A stretch of DNA of 29,898 nucleotides from a virus, in IMG/VR virus record IMGVR_UViG_3300023179_000371, positions 1 to 29,898 of that record, one strand, 5' to 3'. Below, one piece after another: positions 7,680-29,853 of the stretch; the stretch's first letter is position 1, and the number at the start of each line of letters is the position of its first letter. The notes under the pieces are model-generated. The model was not told the origin of the DNA. It did no database searches and worked only from the letters and a program-made list of their open reading frames with translations. Made by a program: the position numbers and the translations under genes.

Positions 7680-7696
7680 CTATATATTTGAAATTT

Positions 7697-7783
7697 CGGG
7701 GCGAGTAGGATTCGAACCTACGAATGAATTTCTTCATCGGCAGTTTAGTAAACTGCTGTTTTCAACCACTCAACCATCGCCCC
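7697..7783 (-). tRNA. tRNA-Ser, anticodon ACU (reads AGU), class II
   Basis: 87 nt, minus strand. Acceptor GGGGCGA pairs fully with TCGCCCC. The T arm is GTAGG-TTCGAAT-CCTAC, and the anticodon arm is GCAGT-TTACTAA-ACTGC with anticodon ACT. A long variable arm with a TGAA/TTCA stem and a G discriminator base are typical of bacterial tRNA-Ser. CCA is not encoded (GAAA follows). Bacterial tRNAs for AGU/AGC normally have GCU; A34 here is unusual. It lies within the minus-strand block and is probably co-transcribed with upstream genes and processed. Confidence 0.93.
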
Positions 7784-7793
7784 ACATTTAAAA

Positions 7794-8231: not shown

Positions 8232-9224
8232 TTAAATTGAAGATCTATTTCCAGAAAATATTATTTCGCAATATTCTTTAAGTTGATTGGTAATATATTC
8301 TTTCATCGAGTCAAAATTAAGAAAATCTATATGACTTGGACCATGTTGGTCATCTGTTATAATTTTATATTTATTAATATTTTGTAAAATATCACATTTA
8401 TTTATGATAATTTTATTTGCGCCAGAAATTTTAATTGCTTGTTTTAAATGATTTAATCTAAGCCAATTAACTATTCTTTTACGACCAGTAGTTGATCCAA
8501 ACTCTTTGCCAAATTCTATAATTTTATTAAGATCTTCATCATTCCATAATGATTCTGGAAAAAGTGGATCAATTCCACTTTTAGTATCATAAATTTTTGC
8601 AACACCAATTATATCTCTAATTTTCTTTGGACTAAAACCTAGAGAGCAAGCATTATAAGGCAATGTTTCACTACTTGTAACATAAGGATAATCACCATAA
8701 TTAATATCTAGCCAAAAACTTTGCGCGCCTTCACAAAGAATTTCTCCTTCAAGATTTCCATCCCAAATATATTTTTTATCAATATAGTCTTTTGCTAGTT
8801 TTCCTACTCTTAACATTTTATCTGAATAAGCTGGAGCAATTCCTTGACCAGTTGTTCCAAGTTTAGGTTTTAAAATTTTAAGATCATAGCGAATATGTCT
8901 TTCAGTGATAAGATGAGCTTTGGGACTTACTTTAATTAAAGATGTATCAAATCCTTCTTTTTTAAGATAATCTATTTCATCAAAAAATTTATCAACATTG
9001 ATAACGCAATTTGGACCAATGACACTAAGTTTATTTTGAAAAACTCCGCAAGGAATAATATGAGTTTTATATTTTTTATCATTGAGATAAACTGTATGAC
9101 CTGCATTTGGACCACCATTCCAACGGCAAACAATATCATAATTTTTAGAAATAGCATTACTTATTTTACCTTTGCCTTCATCACCCCAAGCTAAACCAAA
9201 AATAATATCAACTGCTTTTATCAT
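8232..9224 (-). CDS. purA: adenylosuccinate synthetase family (PurA / PurZ0-like, short form)
   Basis: 330 residues. PurA joins IMP and aspartate with GTP to give adenylosuccinate. Present here: the P-loop-like WGDEGKGK with catalytic Asp15, NGGPNAGHT with His43, GTTGQGIAPAYSDKMLR, EGAQSFWLDINYGDYPYVTS, EFGSTTGRKR and NKCDIL. It is about 100 residues shorter than the common bacterial enzyme, a size shared by archaeal PurA and by phage PurZ-type enzymes that act on dGMP for 2-aminoadenine DNA. PurZ proper replaces the catalytic Asp with Ser; Asp is kept here, so PurA or PurZ0 are the options. No DatZ or MazZ homologue is in the window. It overlaps the upstream SEC-C-like gene by 17 nt. Family certain, substrate open. 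Confidence 0.9.
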   Translation of the reverse strand: MIKAVDIIFGLAWGDEGKGKISNAISKNYDIVCRWNGGPNAGHTVYLNDKKYKTHIIPCGVFQNKLSVIGPNCVINVDKFFDEIDYLKKEGFDTSLIKVSPKAHLITERHIRYDLKILKPKLGTTGQGIAPAYSDKMLRVGKLAKDYIDKKYIWDGNLEGEILCEGAQSFWLDINYGDYPYVTSSETLPYNACSLGFSPKKIRDIIGVAKIYDTKSGIDPLFPESLWNDEDLNKIIEFGKEFGSTTGRKRIVNWLRLNHLKQAIKISGANKIIINKCDILQNINKYKIITDDQHGPSHIDFLNFDSMKEYITNQLKEYCEIIFSGNRSSI

Positions 9225-12219: not shown

Positions 12220-13317
12220 TTATTTTCCATGAGCAACTCCTTCGTACATGCTATTAGATGTAACTAAAACTGCTTTGACTTTATTTGTCCAAAGTCCTCC
12301 TCGCATGTCTTGTAATTTTCTAAAACCAAGATAACTCATAGAACTTCTTAAGCCATTTACAAAGTCATATACTATATCTTCTAAAGAAGTATTTTGATTA
12401 ATTGGAATTAATGTATTATCACCTTCAACAAAAAGATTTTTCTTTGTTCCGTCATGAAGTTCATAATCTTCTACAACATCCTTGCTTGCCATTCCTCGAT
12501 ATTTGGCGAATAATTTTCCATCTTTTTCTATAAGATTCTCATCATCTACAACATCTAGTAGACCAGCAAAAATTCTTCCACAGATTACAGCATCACATCC
12601 ACTAACTATTGCTTTTACAAGATCTTTAGGATATCTAATTCCGCCATCTGCAAGAATACTTGGGCGATTTTGTGGATTTGGTTTATCTTGTTTAAACAAA
12701 TCTACTTGTGATAATTCCCAATTTCTTACAGCCTTCCATGCATAAAAATTACCAGTTAAACTTGGACACCAAATACCAGTTTTTACTTGAGTAAGACACA
12801 TTGACCCCGGACCAATAAGATGTCTAAATCCATCTGCTTTAAGATTAGCTAGTCTATAGACGCTTTCTTTAGTTAACGTATTTCCTACTATTACATCTTG
12901 AGAAAATTTAGAAGTTTTATACCATCTAAGAAAATCTTCTACATTTTTTGCTAAACCATTAGCTGTATCTAAAAAATAAATATCTGTATAAGTACTTGTC
13001 GCTCTAATTCTTTCTTCAGCATCTTTTAAACCAATTGCAGTTATACAGAAATTACTTTCATCTTTAATAAATTTTGCTTTACTTTTTTGATCGTCTATTG
13101 TCATAAAACGATGAAGAACTCCAGCGCCACCAAGTTTATTCATTTTAATACATGATTTTACTGATGATACTGTGTCCATTGGAGACAATATGATTGGTAA
13201 TTTAATTTCAAAATTTCTTGAAATTTTTGTAGTTGTATCTACCTCTTTTCTTGAATTGATATCAGAAAAATTTGGTAATAGAGATATATCATCGTAACCT
13301 AAAGCAGTTTTAAACAT
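12220..13317 (-). CDS. IMP dehydrogenase / GMP reductase family enzyme, without CBS domains
   Basis: 365 residues, one TIM barrel. The catalytic loop is LIGPGSMCLTQVKTG with the nucleophile Cys174. Other marks are IILSPMDTV, LDTANG, ILADGGIRYPKDLVKA and CDAVICGR for the phosphate site, then YRGMASKD. The canonical C-T-T-R after the Cys is C-L-T-Q. The segment FVEGDNTLIPINQ, followed by GLRSSMSYLGFRKL, resembles GMP reductase, and I do not see the Arg-Tyr pair of the IMPDH flap. GMP reductase (GMP to IMP) is therefore my preferred reading, though YRGM is IMPDH-like. With adenylosuccinate synthetase this would route guanine nucleotides to adenine nucleotides. A TTGACA/TAATAT promoter precedes it. 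Confidence 0.85.
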   Translation of the reverse strand: MFKTALGYDDISLLPNFSDINSRKEVDTTTKISRNFEIKLPIILSPMDTVSSVKSCIKMNKLGGAGVLHRFMTIDDQKSKAKFIKDESNFCITAIGLKDAEERIRATSTYTDIYFLDTANGLAKNVEDFLRWYKTSKFSQDVIVGNTLTKESVYRLANLKADGFRHLIGPGSMCLTQVKTGIWCPSLTGNFYAWKAVRNWELSQVDLFKQDKPNPQNRPSILADGGIRYPKDLVKAIVSGCDAVICGRIFAGLLDVVDDENLIEKDGKLFAKYRGMASKDVVEDYELHDGTKKNLFVEGDNTLIPINQNTSLEDIVYDFVNGLRSSMSYLGFRKLQDMRGGLWTNKVKAVLVTSNSMYEGVAHGK

Positions 13318-21883: not shown

Positions 21884-22271
21884 GGGCGCGTACTGGTTTC
21901 GATTTTAAGAAAATAAATTGAAATGCAAGTGGAGGTTGAATCGAGGACTCCTTAAAAAGTTTCAATTATATTAACTGCCAAAACAGCTAAATATAAAGGT
22001 CATATCTCTGCTAGAGTTTCTCTAGTTGAGATGACCGCTTCTGTAGCCTAAGTTCTACAGCGTGACTACCTTGACACATCTATTGGATAGTTGCGTAATT
22101 AGATGTCTTATTATTTATAGTTTTTTTGTTCTATCAGTATTAAGTATTAAAAATAAAATCGCTAAGTATGTTTGTTCTTTATCTATACAAAGCTAAAAAT
22201 AAAAAGAACTAAACTTGTAGTATTTTAATTTAGATTTTTAAAAGACGAGGATTCAACTTCCTCCGCGTCCA
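21884..22271 (+). ncRNA. ssrA: tmRNA (transfer-messenger RNA), one-piece
   Basis: Rescues stalled ribosomes by acting as tRNA-Ala then as mRNA. The ends form a 7-bp acceptor, GGGCGCG at 21884-21890 with CGCGTCC at 22264-22270, followed by an A discriminator. The T arm is GAGGA-TTCAACT-TCCTC at 22247-22263. CCA is not encoded. An early helix pairs GGAG 21931-21934 with CTCC 21948-21951, as in PK1. The tag frame I prefer starts at GCC 21977, reads AKTAKYKG onward, and ends TASVA at a TAA (22049-22051). That stop lies in the loop of a CTGTAG/CTACAG hairpin, as usual for helix 5. A hairpin (ACATCTA 22076-22082 with TAGATGT 22100-22106) fits a later pseudoknot. The tag is about 24 residues and a strong hairpin lies inside it. 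The resume codon is inferred, the tmRNA is not in doubt. Confidence 0.93.
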
Positions 22272-22327
22272 AGTAAACGAATCTCTTCGTCTCCATTTTA
22301 ATATTAGAGATTTATCTTAGGATAAGA

Positions 22328-23023: not shown

Positions 23024-24370
23024 ATGATTAATAACATTACAAGCAATGATGGTAGTGAAAAAAGAATTGGATTAGTTTATAATAGTGATAGCGGTTATTA
23101 CCAAGGTTTTGATTTTAGTAAAATAGATGATATTGAATCTCTTTTAAGAAATCCACCTTTAGCTGACGCATTTGGTAGACAAAGAATTTCTGAACCATAT
23201 ACTCTAGCAGATTACTCTCATGTTTATGGAGAAGAAACTGAACTTCTACAAAAAACTAGTGGAAATAATTCTTATATAAATTTTGATATCTCTAAAGCTA
23301 GAGCAGTTTTAGTAGTTGGCACAGGAGTTAATGATTTCACCATTCATCAAAGTAGAATGTATCATCATTATATGCCCGGCAAAAGTCAATTAACTTTTCA
23401 AAGTTTTAACCTTGGCGCTCCAAGATCAGGAACAAATAAAAGAGTTGGTTTATTTGATAATAATAATGGAATATTTTTTGAACAAAGTGGAGATGGAACA
23501 TTATCTTTAGTTTTAAGAAGCGATGTTTCTGGAAATATTCAAGACCAAAGATTCTCACAAAATAATTGGAACATAGATCAATGCAATGGAAATGGTCCAT
23601 CAAAATTTAATTTAGATATTACAAAAACTCAATTATTCACATCAGATTTTCAATGGTTAGGCGTTGGAACTGTAAGAGCAGGATTTGTGCATAATGGAGA
23701 TGCAATTATTGCACATGAATTTTATAATAGCAATTTTAAAGATTCTGTATATTGGAGTAATCCAAATTTACCAGTTAGATGTGAATTAAGAAATTATGCA
23801 AGTGGTGCAGGAATAACTGGATCAATGGATCAAATTTGCGCAACAGTTATAAGTGAAGGTGGATATAAAGAAGCAGGAGTAGATTTTTCTGCAACTACAA
23901 ATGGTCCAATATCTGTAAATGCTACAAAAATACCATTAATTGCTATTCGATTAAAAACTGGATATTATGGTAAACCAAATAGAAGCGTAGTAAGATTAGG
24001 ACAAGCCTCAGTTTATTCATTAAATCAACCAGTTCAATTTGAATTTTGGAGATTAACAGGAAATGGTAATATTGTAGGTGGGAGTTGGGTTAGTGCGAAT
24101 AATGAAAGTGTTGTAGAATATAATAATACAGCATCAAGCTTGACTACAACTAGTGGGCTTATGATAAATGCAGGGTATGTTGCTGCTGGAGGTCCAGCTG
24201 GAAATCCAGTAGGAACATCTACAAATTTTCAAGATATTACTACTGCAAAAAGAGGTTATATTAGTCAAAATATAGATAGCACAGAAAGCAATATTTTTGT
24301 AATTACAGCTACAGGATTAAATGGAGCGACAAGTGCATTTGCATCAGTTCAATGGCGAGAAACTAGATAA
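23024..24370 (+). CDS. phage virion structural protein, large beta-rich
   Basis: 448 residues. Mostly strand-rich with many Gly, Asn and Ser. The stretches LADAFGRQRISEP, then RMYHHYMPGKSQLTFQSFNLG, NKRVGLFDNNNGIFFEQSGDG and LRSDVSGNIQDQRFSQNNWN are typical of a conserved phage structural protein found in cyanophage- and T4-like virions, usually listed as tail or capsid decoration protein. No signal peptide. It is the first of a run of virion-like genes read in one direction. I am confident that it is structural; its location in the particle is not clear. Confidence 0.7.
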   Translation: MINNITSNDGSEKRIGLVYNSDSGYYQGFDFSKIDDIESLLRNPPLADAFGRQRISEPYTLADYSHVYGEETELLQKTSGNNSYINFDISKARAVLVVGTGVNDFTIHQSRMYHHYMPGKSQLTFQSFNLGAPRSGTNKRVGLFDNNNGIFFEQSGDGTLSLVLRSDVSGNIQDQRFSQNNWNIDQCNGNGPSKFNLDITKTQLFTSDFQWLGVGTVRAGFVHNGDAIIAHEFYNSNFKDSVYWSNPNLPVRCELRNYASGAGITGSMDQICATVISEGGYKEAGVDFSATTNGPISVNATKIPLIAIRLKTGYYGKPNRSVVRLGQASVYSLNQPVQFEFWRLTGNGNIVGGSWVSANNESVVEYNNTASSLTTTSGLMINAGYVAAGGPAGNPVGTSTNFQDITTAKRGYISQNIDSTESNIFVITATGLNGATSAFASVQWRETR

Positions 24371-25913: not shown

Positions 25914-26294
25914 ATGGCAAATGAAGGCCTAATATTTCCTAAGTTGAATGAAAGACAAAAAGATCTTTATCTAAAAATAGTTACGAATTTACAAACTTAT
26001 GGGTATTTTGATAGAGGAACTGGATCTAACGGAATTCAATATTTAAGTGCAGATCAAAATCCTTTTAAAGAACAAAATCTTGAATGTGAATATTGTGTAT
26101 TTTATTATCTTGAAGGAGATAAACCAAGATGCGAATTAATTCAAGGCAATATTGATGAAGAAGGATGGTGCAAATTTTGGATAATCAGCGAAGAAGATAT
26201 AAAGAAAGAATCTCAAGCTGCTTTCAGAGTTTTAAATAATAAAACTAAAACTTTTGAAGTATCATATAGATTGGATGATAAACAAACAAAATAA
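25914..26294 (+). CDS. small four-cysteine protein, HiPIP-like pattern
   Basis: 126 residues. Four cysteines stand in the order C58-x2-C61-x11-C73-x12-C86, with CVFYYLEGDKPRCELIQGN followed by EEGWCKFWII, a layout seen in phage proteins that resemble high-potential iron-sulphur proteins or a structural zinc site. The C-terminus is charged and contains ESQAAFRVLNNKTKTFEVSYR. Function unknown; it is often found near virion genes in large phages. It begins 4 nt after the preceding stop, and the next gene starts within its last codons. Confidence 0.65.
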   Translation: MANEGLIFPKLNERQKDLYLKIVTNLQTYGYFDRGTGSNGIQYLSADQNPFKEQNLECEYCVFYYLEGDKPRCELIQGNIDEEGWCKFWIISEEDIKKESQAAFRVLNNKTKTFEVSYRLDDKQTK

Positions 26295-26805
26295 ATTTTG
26301 GAATTGGAAATCGAAAACATTATCTGTTGGATTTATATTAATCGTATCTTGGGCATCCTGTCTAAAAATTGGTTTCGAACTTAAAAAATATAGCAATATA
26401 ACAAATCTTCCTAATTCTTGTTTTGTTGACGCGATGATTTATGCTTCTCAATGTAATCTTCTTTTAACCACAAACACAGAAATATGGAATAGTGTTTATG
26501 GTTTTATTTTTCATTATAAAGATGATCAAGAAAATATCCTTGGCCATGCAATTTGTGTTTTTGAATATAAAAATAATTTATGGGTATATGATCCTAATTG
26601 GGGCACATCACCAATATGTCAAACTGGAGATAAAAAACAATATAGGGAAAAAATAAGATTATACATTAATGAACATTACCCTATAATAGTAATAGAGGAT
26701 TTCATGCTGAATGATTGGACATATGTTCAAAAAATAAAGAAAAATAAAATGAACAAATCTTATCAAGAGGTGTCTATACATTTAGATGAGGATAAAAAGG
26801 AGTAA
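26275..26805 (+). CDS. membrane-anchored papain/transglutaminase-like cysteine hydrolase candidate
   Basis: 176 residues from the ATG at 26275, which overlaps the previous gene by 20 nt (an upstream TTG at 26254 is possible). Residues 17-33 form a membrane span (LSVGFILIVSWASCLKIGF). The rest shows a plausible Cys-His-Asp triad: Cys49 (LPNSCFVDAMIYA), His91 (GHAICVFEY) and Asp106 (LWVYDPNWGT), the order and context of papain-like or transglutaminase-like folds. It could cleave or cross-link proteins at the membrane. It directly precedes the PEP-CTERM protein gene, so that protein is the most obvious candidate partner, but this is inference. Not an exosortase: that family is multi-span. Confidence 0.5.
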   Translation: MINKQNKFWNWKSKTLSVGFILIVSWASCLKIGFELKKYSNITNLPNSCFVDAMIYASQCNLLLTTNTEIWNSVYGFIFHYKDDQENILGHAICVFEYKNNLWVYDPNWGTSPICQTGDKKQYREKIRLYINEHYPIIVIEDFMLNDWTYVQKIKKNKMNKSYQEVSIHLDEDKKE

Positions 26806-26811: not shown

Positions 26812-29304
26812 ATGAAAATAAACCTATTAAAAAGGTTACTAAAAAATACAGCCGCAAATTTAATTGCGGCTTTTTTAATGTCTGGATCTCTAGGGAATTC
26901 TGCGGTATTTTTATGGAATAATACTGGATCAGCATGGACATCAGGTACTAGTTGGACAAATGGCGTTCAACCTACTTCTACTAGCTCAAGCACAACAACA
27001 GATGAAGTTCAGTTTGGTAATTTTGGGGTCAACTTTAATACTGTTGATTTGACTTCTAGTAGGTCTGTTAAAAATCTTACATTTTTAACAAATGCAAATG
27101 CATATACATTTACAACTGCATCTGCAAAAGTATTAACTATTAGTGCGGGACTTACAAATAATTCAAGTGCAACTCAAACATTTAATTTAGTTGTAGAAAA
27201 TGCTAATGCTAGTAACACTTGGTATCAAACATCTGGTGGAACTATGATATTTAATAATTTAGTTACCTTGACTACCGCATCTTCATCTACATCTAGAACA
27301 TTAACTCTTGCTGGTGGCGGCACGTTTACATTTAATAATTCTTTAAATCAAGGCGGTTTAGCTACCGCAGGAAAAGTAGTTATTAATAATGCTGGAGGCA
27401 TAGTTAATCTTACTAGCGCCAATACACTTGGAGGTGGAATACAAATAACAGCCGGTACTGTTAATTTTAATAATGCTGGATCATTAGGCACTGGCATATT
27501 AGAATTAGGAGCAACAACTGGAACCAGTTATGGAAATAGTATATTGAATAATTCCTCTGGTTCAGCAATAAATTTAACTGGCATTACAGGATTAATATGG
27601 TCTGGCACAACCCCAGCAGGAATTCAAATTGGAACATCTTCTAGTACCTCTGCAAATAATATAGATTTTGGAAGCGGATTAGTAACTACAACTACTTCTA
27701 GAGCTATGAATATTGCTGGAACTGGCGTTACAATTTCAATGGGAACTCTTACAACAACTGGGACAAGCAATGGTTATACATATACATTTGATGGAGTTGG
27801 AAATACTATAGATTTGGATGGATGGAAAATTAGCACAGCAGTAACTCCTATTCAAAATGTAGTTCATCAATTAAAAGGTTCAGCTAATTTAAATGTAGGT
27901 ACTATTGAAAATGGCACAGCTGGCTGGACAAATGGTATTGAAATTAATGGAGGCGGTATAAATAGATTAACTGGAAATAATACTTATACTGGAACAACAT
28001 CATTTTTAAATGGAACAAATTATATATCTGGTAATAATAATGCAGCGACAGGAAATGTAAGTATTGCTGGTACATCTGGATCTGGAAAAACACCATTAGT
28101 AAGATTAGATTCTGTTAATGCAATTTCTAGTTCAAGCAGTTTAATCGGATCAACAAGCACAACAACAACTGGAACATTAGATTTTAATGCCAGTACGAAT
28201 TATGTATTTAATTCTTTTCTTGGTAATAATATGATTTTTACTAATTCATATGGTCAAGTGAGTGTTGTTACTTTTACAAACGCAGCAAATACTATTACTT
28301 CATCTGCTGGTACAAGTGGGGGCAGATCATTATTAAATAATAGCTCTGATTTAACTATAGTATTTGATGGAAATATAGATATTGGATCTAGTTCTACAGG
28401 ATTAAACAATACTCTTGGTGGAGTCGGTAATTGGCTTGTTAAAGGGAATATATTCAGCACAACAATAAACTCTACAAGAGGTTTAAATAAAACTGGTGCA
28501 GGACTTTTAGAACTACGAGGTGCAAATAATTATAATGGAGATACAGTAATATCTGGCGGAACTTTATTAATTGCAACCAATGCTTCTATTAGTGGAAGTA
28601 CCACTCAATTAAGCGGTGGTACTCTTGATGTTAGAGGAACAATAGCAGGAGTTAATCAAACTGGTGGAACATTATTAATATCTGGCACAGCAGGAACAAC
28701 TGTAGTAAATGCTGGCACATCTACAGTAAATGCTGGTGGCGTAATTGGAAATACAACGATCAATGGAAGTTTATTATCAATAAATGGAAGTGCAGGAGAT
28801 GTTATGGTAAATACAGGAGGTACATTAGGTGGCTCTGGTAGTGTGCAAACCCTAACTCTAAATGGCGGTACTGTGGCTCCGGGCAATAGTCCGGGTCTGC
28901 TAACTGCTTATGAGTTAAATGGAGCGAATGGAACATTCCTTTTCCAACTTGGCGCGCCCACTACCAGAGGCATCACATATGATGCAATAAATGTAACAAA
29001 TTTATTAACTCTTGGGGCGAATACAAATTTTACATTTGAAGTATTAGATAATTATAATTTTTATAGCGGAGATTCATATGATCTATTTGACTTTGGAAGT
29101 ATTGACTCAACTAGTTTTGATATAACAAAATTAAATGTTGCATTACCAACTTTAAATTCAAATGATTTGAGTTGGGATGTAAGTTCTTTTACAACAGATG
29201 GAATAATTAGCGTTATTAGTGTCCCAGAGCCATCAGCACTTCAAATGTTAGGAATTGGTTTGATTTCTTTATTAGCTTTTCGTAGAATAAATAAAAATGG
29301 ATAA
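26812..29304 (+). CDS. exported PEP-CTERM protein with autotransporter-associated beta-strand repeats
   Basis: 830 residues. A signal peptide (basic KRLLKN, then ANLIAAFLMSGSLG ending GNSA near residue 31) precedes SAVFLWNNTGSAWTSG, a W-rich opening of this family. The body is almost entirely Gly/Asn/Thr/Ser-rich beta repeats, with GLNKTGAGLLELRGANNYNG followed by TVISGGTLLI as a clear autotransporter-associated repeat and NNTYTGTTSFLNGTNYISGN as another. A non-repeat region precedes SVPEPSALQMLG, a hydrophobic span, and an FRR basic end: the PEP-CTERM sorting signal, cut by host exosortase. This is typical of host surface proteins in Verrucomicrobia and Planctomycetes, so it is probably acquired. 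Likely surface-exposed in an infected cell, perhaps for adhesion or superinfection exclusion. Confidence 0.88.
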   Translation: MKINLLKRLLKNTAANLIAAFLMSGSLGNSAVFLWNNTGSAWTSGTSWTNGVQPTSTSSSTTTDEVQFGNFGVNFNTVDLTSSRSVKNLTFLTNANAYTFTTASAKVLTISAGLTNNSSATQTFNLVVENANASNTWYQTSGGTMIFNNLVTLTTASSSTSRTLTLAGGGTFTFNNSLNQGGLATAGKVVINNAGGIVNLTSANTLGGGIQITAGTVNFNNAGSLGTGILELGATTGTSYGNSILNNSSGSAINLTGITGLIWSGTTPAGIQIGTSSSTSANNIDFGSGLVTTTTSRAMNIAGTGVTISMGTLTTTGTSNGYTYTFDGVGNTIDLDGWKISTAVTPIQNVVHQLKGSANLNVGTIENGTAGWTNGIEINGGGINRLTGNNTYTGTTSFLNGTNYISGNNNAATGNVSIAGTSGSGKTPLVRLDSVNAISSSSSLIGSTSTTTTGTLDFNASTNYVFNSFLGNNMIFTNSYGQVSVVTFTNAANTITSSAGTSGGRSLLNNSSDLTIVFDGNIDIGSSSTGLNNTLGGVGNWLVKGNIFSTTINSTRGLNKTGAGLLELRGANNYNGDTVISGGTLLIATNASISGSTTQLSGGTLDVRGTIAGVNQTGGTLLISGTAGTTVVNAGTSTVNAGGVIGNTTINGSLLSINGSAGDVMVNTGGTLGGSGSVQTLTLNGGTVAPGNSPGLLTAYELNGANGTFLFQLGAPTTRGITYDAINVTNLLTLGANTNFTFEVLDNYNFYSGDSYDLFDFGSIDSTSFDITKLNVALPTLNSNDLSWDVSSFTTDGIISVISVPEPSALQMLGIGLISLLAFRRINKNG
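26850..26876 (+). terminator. intrinsic-terminator-like hairpin inside the PEP-CTERM gene
   Basis: AGCCGCAA (26850-26857) pairs with TTGCGGCT (26864-26871), an 8-bp stem with five G-C pairs and a 6-nt loop, followed by TTTTT (26872-26876). A smaller AACCT/AGGTT hairpin (26821-26825 with 26833-26837) lies upstream. The stem encodes signal-peptide residues. It looks like a textbook terminator placed 38 nt into a coding region. Confidence 0.7.
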
Positions 29305-29542
29305 TCAATTGAAAAATTTATTGTTGTATAATTATGAAAAAAGTCTTCCTTCTAAAAGAGATACAGAAGATTTTATAAATAATTTTCATCAATATAGAAA
29401 CAAAAAGAAAGCTGAAGAAAAAACATATTATTCATTAGCTTTAATAATACTATTAATTGTTACAGCATTAGGGTCAATAGCTATAAAAGAAACAACAAAT
29501 AAACTAGACATACAAACCGCAGCTGGACGAGTTCAGAAATGA
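29297..29542 (+). CDS. small single-span membrane protein
   Basis: 81 residues. A charged cytoplasmic N-terminus (MDNQLKNLLLYNYEKSLPSK followed by RDTEDFINNF) leads to one span, YYSLALIILLIVTALGSIAI, and a short external tail. The topology resembles membrane-anchored anti-sigma factors or small regulators, but I see no such motif. The start is within the last codons of the PEP-CTERM gene (8-nt overlap), so translation is probably coupled and the two belong together. The stop overlaps the next ATG by 4 nt. Confidence 0.6.
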   Translation: MDNQLKNLLLYNYEKSLPSKRDTEDFINNFHQYRNKKKAEEKTYYSLALIILLIVTALGSIAIKETTNKLDIQTAAGRVQK

Positions 29543-29853
29543 AATCTTTTATATTGTCAGATTTATTATTTTATTTTATGTTATTTCCAATAGCTTATGC
29601 TTGCGCATTTATTTATATGAAAGACATTAAACCAGAAAAACAATATAATTTAGGTCTTGATTTTGAATATGTGCAAATTGACGAAGGATCATCTTTTGTA
29701 TCTCAAGCAGAACCAATAGGGCAAAATAGCCAACCTTGGATATTAAGTTTATTAGAAAAACCAAAACCAACTATAGATACAAATCAGCATTATATAATGG
29801 TTGGATATATGATGAAACAAATAAGATTAAAGACAAATTTATGCAAAAATTAA
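29539..29853 (+). CDS. small membrane-anchored protein
   Basis: 104 residues. One N-terminal span (LLFYFMLFPIAYACAFIYM) may act as an uncleaved anchor. The remaining 75 residues are acidic then basic (DFEYVQIDEGSSFVSQAEPI, later MMKQIRLKTNLCKN) and probably lie outside the membrane. I recognise no family. ATGA overlap with the gene before, and the next gene begins 13 nt before its stop, so three or more membrane or export genes form one tight unit behind the PEP-CTERM gene. Confidence 0.55.
   Translation: MKSFILSDLLFYFMLFPIAYACAFIYMKDIKPEKQYNLGLDFEYVQIDEGSSFVSQAEPIGQNSQPWILSLLEKPKPTIDTNQHYIMVGYMMKQIRLKTNLCKN

Follow-up and report, generated by a model that had tools for sequence, protein, structure and literature searches.

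PEP-CTERM proteins are exported by the Sec system, held in the membrane by their C-terminal tail, cut by an exosortase, and delivered to the cell surface or to exopolysaccharide (EPS) (PMC1569441, PMC9850573, PMC12188702). The known roles of these proteins and of exosortases lie at the cell surface and in EPS binding, flocculation, adhesion, and biofilm (PMC9850573, PMC12188702). Haft et al. 2006 (PMC1569441) reported that their bodies contain much Thr, Ser, and Asn but little Cys and few basic residues. A second group, the autotransporter-associated repeat proteins (PATR, PF12951/TIGR02601), is built from a repeat unit that forms a beta-solenoid body, and type V autotransporters end in a C-terminal 12-strand beta-barrel translocator. 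Phages also encode surface proteins that alter the infected cell, such as superinfection-exclusion proteins and phage lipoproteins, which carry an export signal and probably act at the envelope. Our literature search, with subscription journals and preprints outside its scope, found no paper on PEP-CTERM proteins of phages.

We analyzed a linear viral record of 29.9 kb, referred to as a whole as the window. Positions 26812..29304 (+) are a real open reading frame with an ATG start, encoding a protein of 830 aa, here called P0001, that matches PF07589, PF12951, TIGR02595, and TIGR02601. The original prediction of a phage-encoded PEP-CTERM protein was borne out, as PF07589 and TIGR02595 both scored at or above cut-off and phage relatives share the locus. 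PF07589 scored 20.7 bits against the whole protein, equal to its cut-off of 20.7, and 25.2 bits in a six-frame search, while TIGR02595 reached 16.6 bits (cut-off 16). The match spans residues 803-825, and the signal itself, VPEPSALQMLGIGLISLLAFRRI, lies at 29218..29286 (+). The near-invariant Pro-Glu-Pro is present as VPEPS at the C-terminal end, followed by a modelled transmembrane helix at residues 809-828 (hydropathy 2.08) and the basic stretch RRINKNG. The predicted signal peptide was also found at the N-terminus (MKINLLKRLLKNTAANLIAAFLMSGSLGNSA, 26812..26904 (+), residues 1-31 up to a putative cleavage point), with a basic start, a hydrophobic core, and small residues; AlphaFold2 models a helix at residues 3-23 of it, and sequence inspection together with this model gave no other transmembrane segment. 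The body contains 16.8% Thr, 11.7% Ser, 12.1% Asn, no Cys, and 2.5% Lys+Arg, compared to 5.0, 7.1, 7.3, 1.6, and 13.8% in 18 other window proteins, and thereby matches the composition signature of Haft et al. 2006 (PMC1569441). P0001 therefore shares with the substrates of exosortase (EpsH) (PMC1569441) a signal peptide, a PEP motif, a transmembrane helix, a basic end, and a Thr/Ser/Asn-rich, Cys-free body. Unlike those substrates, it and its counterparts in relatives, whose composition agrees with that of its body, are phage-encoded, occupy one fixed slot in phage records without an exosortase, and combine a constant signal peptide with swapped bodies.

The body had been described as many autotransporter-associated repeats, and this held in part: the beta-solenoid and the PATR and TIGR02601 matches are there, but only one unit is clearly PATR (PF12951, residues 558-587, 1.8e-7), beside two TIGR02601 stretches (1.8e-8), and there is no barrel. 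Pfam and NCBIfam profiles gave no match to an autotransporter barrel family in P0001, whose C terminus is the transmembrane helix. P0001 thus has the repeat unit and beta-solenoid body of the repeat proteins with a PEP-CTERM anchor in place of a matched beta-barrel, and it lacks the 12-strand translocator of type V autotransporters. In the AlphaFold2 model, built on 15 relatives, beta strands run throughout between the two terminal helices. The best-modelled part is a beta-solenoid at residues 520-710 (28369..28941 (+), mostly above 90 pLDDT) that includes the PATR unit, and the rest of the body is modelled as a degenerate beta-solenoid. Foldseek with this model returned weak matches to autotransporter passengers (IgA1 protease, antigen 43); identity with IgA1 protease was rejected, since the likeness is limited to the passenger solenoid. 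Domain searches found no carbohydrate-binding or enzyme domain in P0001. Two BFVD proteins of uncultured Caudovirales (A0A6J5M3L0, A0A6J5KUW0) are likened to P0001 by their autotransporter-repeat annotation, with Foldseek E-values of 0.15-1.5 at which homology is not demonstrable. No P0001-like protein was found in isolate phages, plasmids gave weak repeat similarity only, and a bacterial genome scan with alignment A1 gave a single weak Planctomycetota match (34%).

The position of the gene behind virion genes was confirmed by a T4-like cyanophage-type virion structural protein at 23024..24370 (+) (phrog_1645, 2e-93), which has homologues in 166 isolate phages, mostly Synechococcus phages. The window also encodes ribonucleotide reductase, DNA ligase, and a PurA/PurZ-like enzyme. 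The PEP-CTERM gene ends only 0.6 kb short of the record end, which would fit a contig that was mis-binned or that runs into host DNA at its edge. However, many independent contigs share the gene order, and downstream of the same position the relatives run on through small membrane and secreted proteins, with a FecR-domain protein among them in some, to the terminase large subunit. The GC3 of the gene (0.14) also resembles that of phage nrdA (0.15). The continuation in relatives rules out a host gene at the contig edge, and we regard host DNA or mis-binning as vanishingly improbable; the record end cuts a phage genome and does not mark a prophage boundary.

Several other features of the window were observed. 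Positions 21884-22272 hold a phage-borne tmRNA (RF00023, 109.6 bits) with a long unusual tag, AKTAKYKGHISARVSLVEMTASVA. A tmRNA is also present in L014, L019, L024, L033, L059, and L060 (L numbers denote related viral records); a second tag type, ending LIAA, occurs in L024 and L059. Phage tmRNA is known elsewhere (PMC9004378). ARAGORN called a tRNA-Ser with the unusual anticodon ACT at 7696-7784. The PurA/PurZ-like enzyme (8232-9224) and an IMP dehydrogenase/GMP reductase-like enzyme (12220-13317) occur together in this one phage, the former scoring higher against PurA than PurZ, with both scores below cut-off.

The PEP-CTERM gene lies in a slot between two conserved genes, p183 upstream (26254..26805 (+); probable ATG at 26275, giving 176 aa as in relatives; alignment of 21) and p81 downstream. 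The latter, a single-pass membrane protein at 29297..29542 (+) whose start overlaps the P0001 stop by 8 nt, was found at 29 viral loci, with 67% mean column identity in an alignment of 12. It is followed by p104, a small membrane protein (29539..29853 (+)) in the conserved downstream run, with homologues directly after p81 in many relatives. Upstream of p183 lies the conserved gene p126 (25914..26294 (+)), found at 30 viral loci, with a second copy in another locus. Relatives of p126 were considered as an "empty slot" control and rejected, as they mostly represent this second locus with a p126 paralogue. The original prediction saw a cargo module with private membrane genes; flanking membrane proteins are indeed present, but p183 and p81 are fixtures of the lineage, and what gets exchanged is the PEP-CTERM gene.

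To place the slot among relatives, we gathered viral contigs from IMG/VR with p183 and p81, of which 26, the window included, contain both and so span the slot. In all 26, the slot holds 1-5 genes with a PEP motif near at least one C terminus, and in 25 at least one slot gene carries the canonical tail of PEP motif, transmembrane helix, and basic end (the exception is L002). The locus is thus not a single odd cargo gene but a lineage-wide, hypervariable, and often multi-gene array. P0001 is 57-84% identical to slot proteins on other phage contigs (n = 14). A PEP-CTERM HMM alone was positive in 26 of 32 viral records, and several of the six negative records (L005, L057, L059) show clear tails by eye. 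In a scripted test of ORFs of at least 100 aa from 36 related loci, 43 of 617 had the tripartite tail, every one of them in the slot, though three of the 43 are borderline and of an amphipathic type (L012 4057-4782, L111 2056-2802, L024 10529-11260). Shuffled tails scored as tripartite in 13 of 127,600 cases, which excludes chance.

Further records were reached through a pseudopilin present in some slots. A type IV prepilin-like protein (TIGR02532) is encoded at L002 10256-10924, L029 11736-12404, L033 12997-13665, L049 2569-3228, and L109 6001-6669, where its gene overlaps or follows a PEP-CTERM gene in the same slot. The same PEP-CTERM genes occur with different neighbours in L109 (a 217-kb record), L110, and L111; in L140, a p183 relative is followed by three more PEP-CTERM genes. 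L109 represents a second phage type and L140 a third with the same kind of module; the module therefore moves between several phage groups or has persisted in them. In L112, a PEP-CTERM gene is present without p183 beside it.

Within the slot, bodies were found to be only 20-34% identical between phages whose p183 is up to 97% identical: L004 and L029 share 97% in p183 and 20% in the bodies, L059 and L061 share 93% and 33%, and the window and L006 share 93% and 28%. The signal peptide that opens the first slot gene, MKINLLKRLLKNTAAKLIAAFLM, is almost identical across most contigs while the bodies differ; inner slot genes use another, MKKIILTILTAITLTANSQA-like one, and many last genes end in VPEPSALQ(M/L)(L/F)GIGLISLLACRRINKRNG. 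Within one body type, dN/dS is about 0.1-0.4, indicating purifying selection. Slot genes thus look like long-resident, frequently recombining phage genes. Two 52-aa ORFs (L011 5212-5370, L012 9011-9169) consist of a short start and a PEP-CTERM tail with little else, and are probably recombination remnants.

Some inner slot genes (L002, L011, L012, L024, L060, L061, L111) depart from the standard tail in a way that the standard PEP-CTERM model leaves unexplained, which counts against reading the slot as a host-sorted display module. They end in IPEP[ST]xxx[DE]L[LI]xxP..., with an amphipathic tail instead of a transmembrane one, as at L011 1384-3159, L012 7238-9007, L002 7145-10102, L060 7201-9162, and L111 2056-2802. 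Several sequences recur (...ATIQTGI, ...NERGY, ...LTIVY), and since they do so on different bodies, these tails are not the random decay of one gene. A frameshift that would restore the helix was rejected, because the other frames hold none.

A search of 32 viral records, the longest of 172 kb, found no exosortase (PF09721); the control search did detect it in Methanocaldococcus jannaschii. The original prediction had asked whether the phage brings its own exosortase, and these records, being fragments, make the case for its absence strong but not complete. The host's exosortase is thus likely the sorter of P0001, the presence of one in the host being assumed. PEP-CTERM proteins with autotransporter repeats, the pseudopilin, and FecR proteins offer a hint toward the Planctomycetes-Verrucomicrobia group. 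The pseudopilin of some relatives scored 21.1 bits, in its N-terminal part only, against the Verru_Chthon cassette protein D model (TIGR02596, cut-off 70). As a host marker in Planctomycetota the pseudopilin was rejected as uninformative, as 191 of 199 genomes match it, mostly in the N-terminal region. The phage tmRNA had no match in 392 Planctomycetota genomes, in a search run without a positive control. Its fit to the general RF00023 model, in a search that kept just the top-scoring of any overlapping clan members, is a weak hint against an alpha-, beta-, or cyanobacterial origin.

We consider P0001 to be probably (roughly two chances in three) one allele of a variable module for surface display in a T4-like phage lineage that borrows the host exosortase. 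During infection, the Sec system would export the protein and its PEP-CTERM helix would hold it in the inner membrane, where the host exosortase would cut it and pass it to the outer surface or the exopolysaccharide. Compared to superinfection-exclusion proteins and phage lipoproteins, P0001 would thus rely on a host sorting enzyme and not on lipidation or a barrel of its own. Phages exchange bodies, and also gain and lose them, while the signal peptide stays constant and the anchors stay constant or similar. A benefit would likely come from an altered surface or matrix of the infected cell, seen differently by competing phages, predators, or neighbouring cells. The swapping suits a function directed at a partner that changes, for example competing phages or the host surface.

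Between blocking superinfection and acting on the matrix, we cannot choose firmly. Displayed solenoids may mask or compete for surface receptors, with swapping as an arms race with other phages. The speed with which near-identical phages exchange bodies, the several paralogues per phage, and the constant export and anchor parts make this a tentative candidate, although swapping has many other possible reasons, selection within a body type is purifying and not diversifying, and PADLOC defence models gave no match. Alternatively, the proteins may bind EPS to infected cells and change flocculation or adhesion, and with them encounter rates or grazing, which we hold to be possible but doubtful. 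In its favour, flocs form and EPS is retained through a PEP-CTERM protein in one host (PMC9850573), EPS adhesion needs an exosortase (PMC12188702), the solenoid weakly resembles self-associating passengers, and genes that look by eye glycosyltransferase- and sugar-nucleotide-like lie downstream in some relatives; against this, P0001 shows no carbohydrate-binding or enzyme domain, and there are other reasons for T4-like phages to carry glycosyltransferases. A decoy, in which abundant phage protein saturates the host exosortase and stops host surface-protein display, would need only a conserved tail. Tail and signal vary least of all parts, and the 52-aa ORFs hold barely more than the tail, yet those look like remnants, and bodies of 240-985 aa under purifying selection would be needless, so that we judge a decoy quite improbable.

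The upstream border gene brings in one further candidate. p183 combines one N-terminal transmembrane helix with a domain in which Cys56, His98, and Asp113 are invariant (alignment of 21), and its weak best Foldseek matches (E 0.02-0.5) are to the cysteine-protease folds of vasohibin (E 0.02), SseI, AvrPphB, and UCHL5. Lying directly upstream of the slot in the main lineage, it could be a membrane-anchored transglutaminase- or papain-like cysteine peptidase that cuts or links PEP-CTERM proteins, replacing or aiding the host exosortase. However, these fold matches rest on a model of low confidence (pLDDT 67), a sequence-family search gave no match, and the PEP-CTERM gene of L112 does without an adjoining p183. 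A relative in L110 (5938-7113 (-)) lies on the other strand at a distance of more than 3.5 kb, next to genes read by eye as endolysin- and lipoprotein-like, which makes a lysis role as likely for p183 as action on slot proteins; we rate a processing enzyme as improbable. That constant export signal and anchor, an exchangeable solenoid pool, the host exosortase, and p183 as membrane cysteine peptidase together form a dedicated variable display system, giving the infected cell a phage-specific coat, is an unlikely extension.

For the reading of P0001 as an allele of a host-sorted display module, the wider meaning lies in the use of a bacterial pathway by a virus. PEP-CTERM sorting has so far been described, in the literature we found, only as a cellular system; phages with exosortase substrates, apparently without an exosortase, would be a case of a virus drawing on a bacterial pathway that sorts proteins to the surface. 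The hosts of these uncultured phages are predicted to have an exosortase. The PEP motif without a transmembrane helix in some of the proteins becomes a testable question, and the slot offers a naturally occurring set of bodies, interchangeable on a single anchor, with which the function of PEP-CTERM proteins may be tested.
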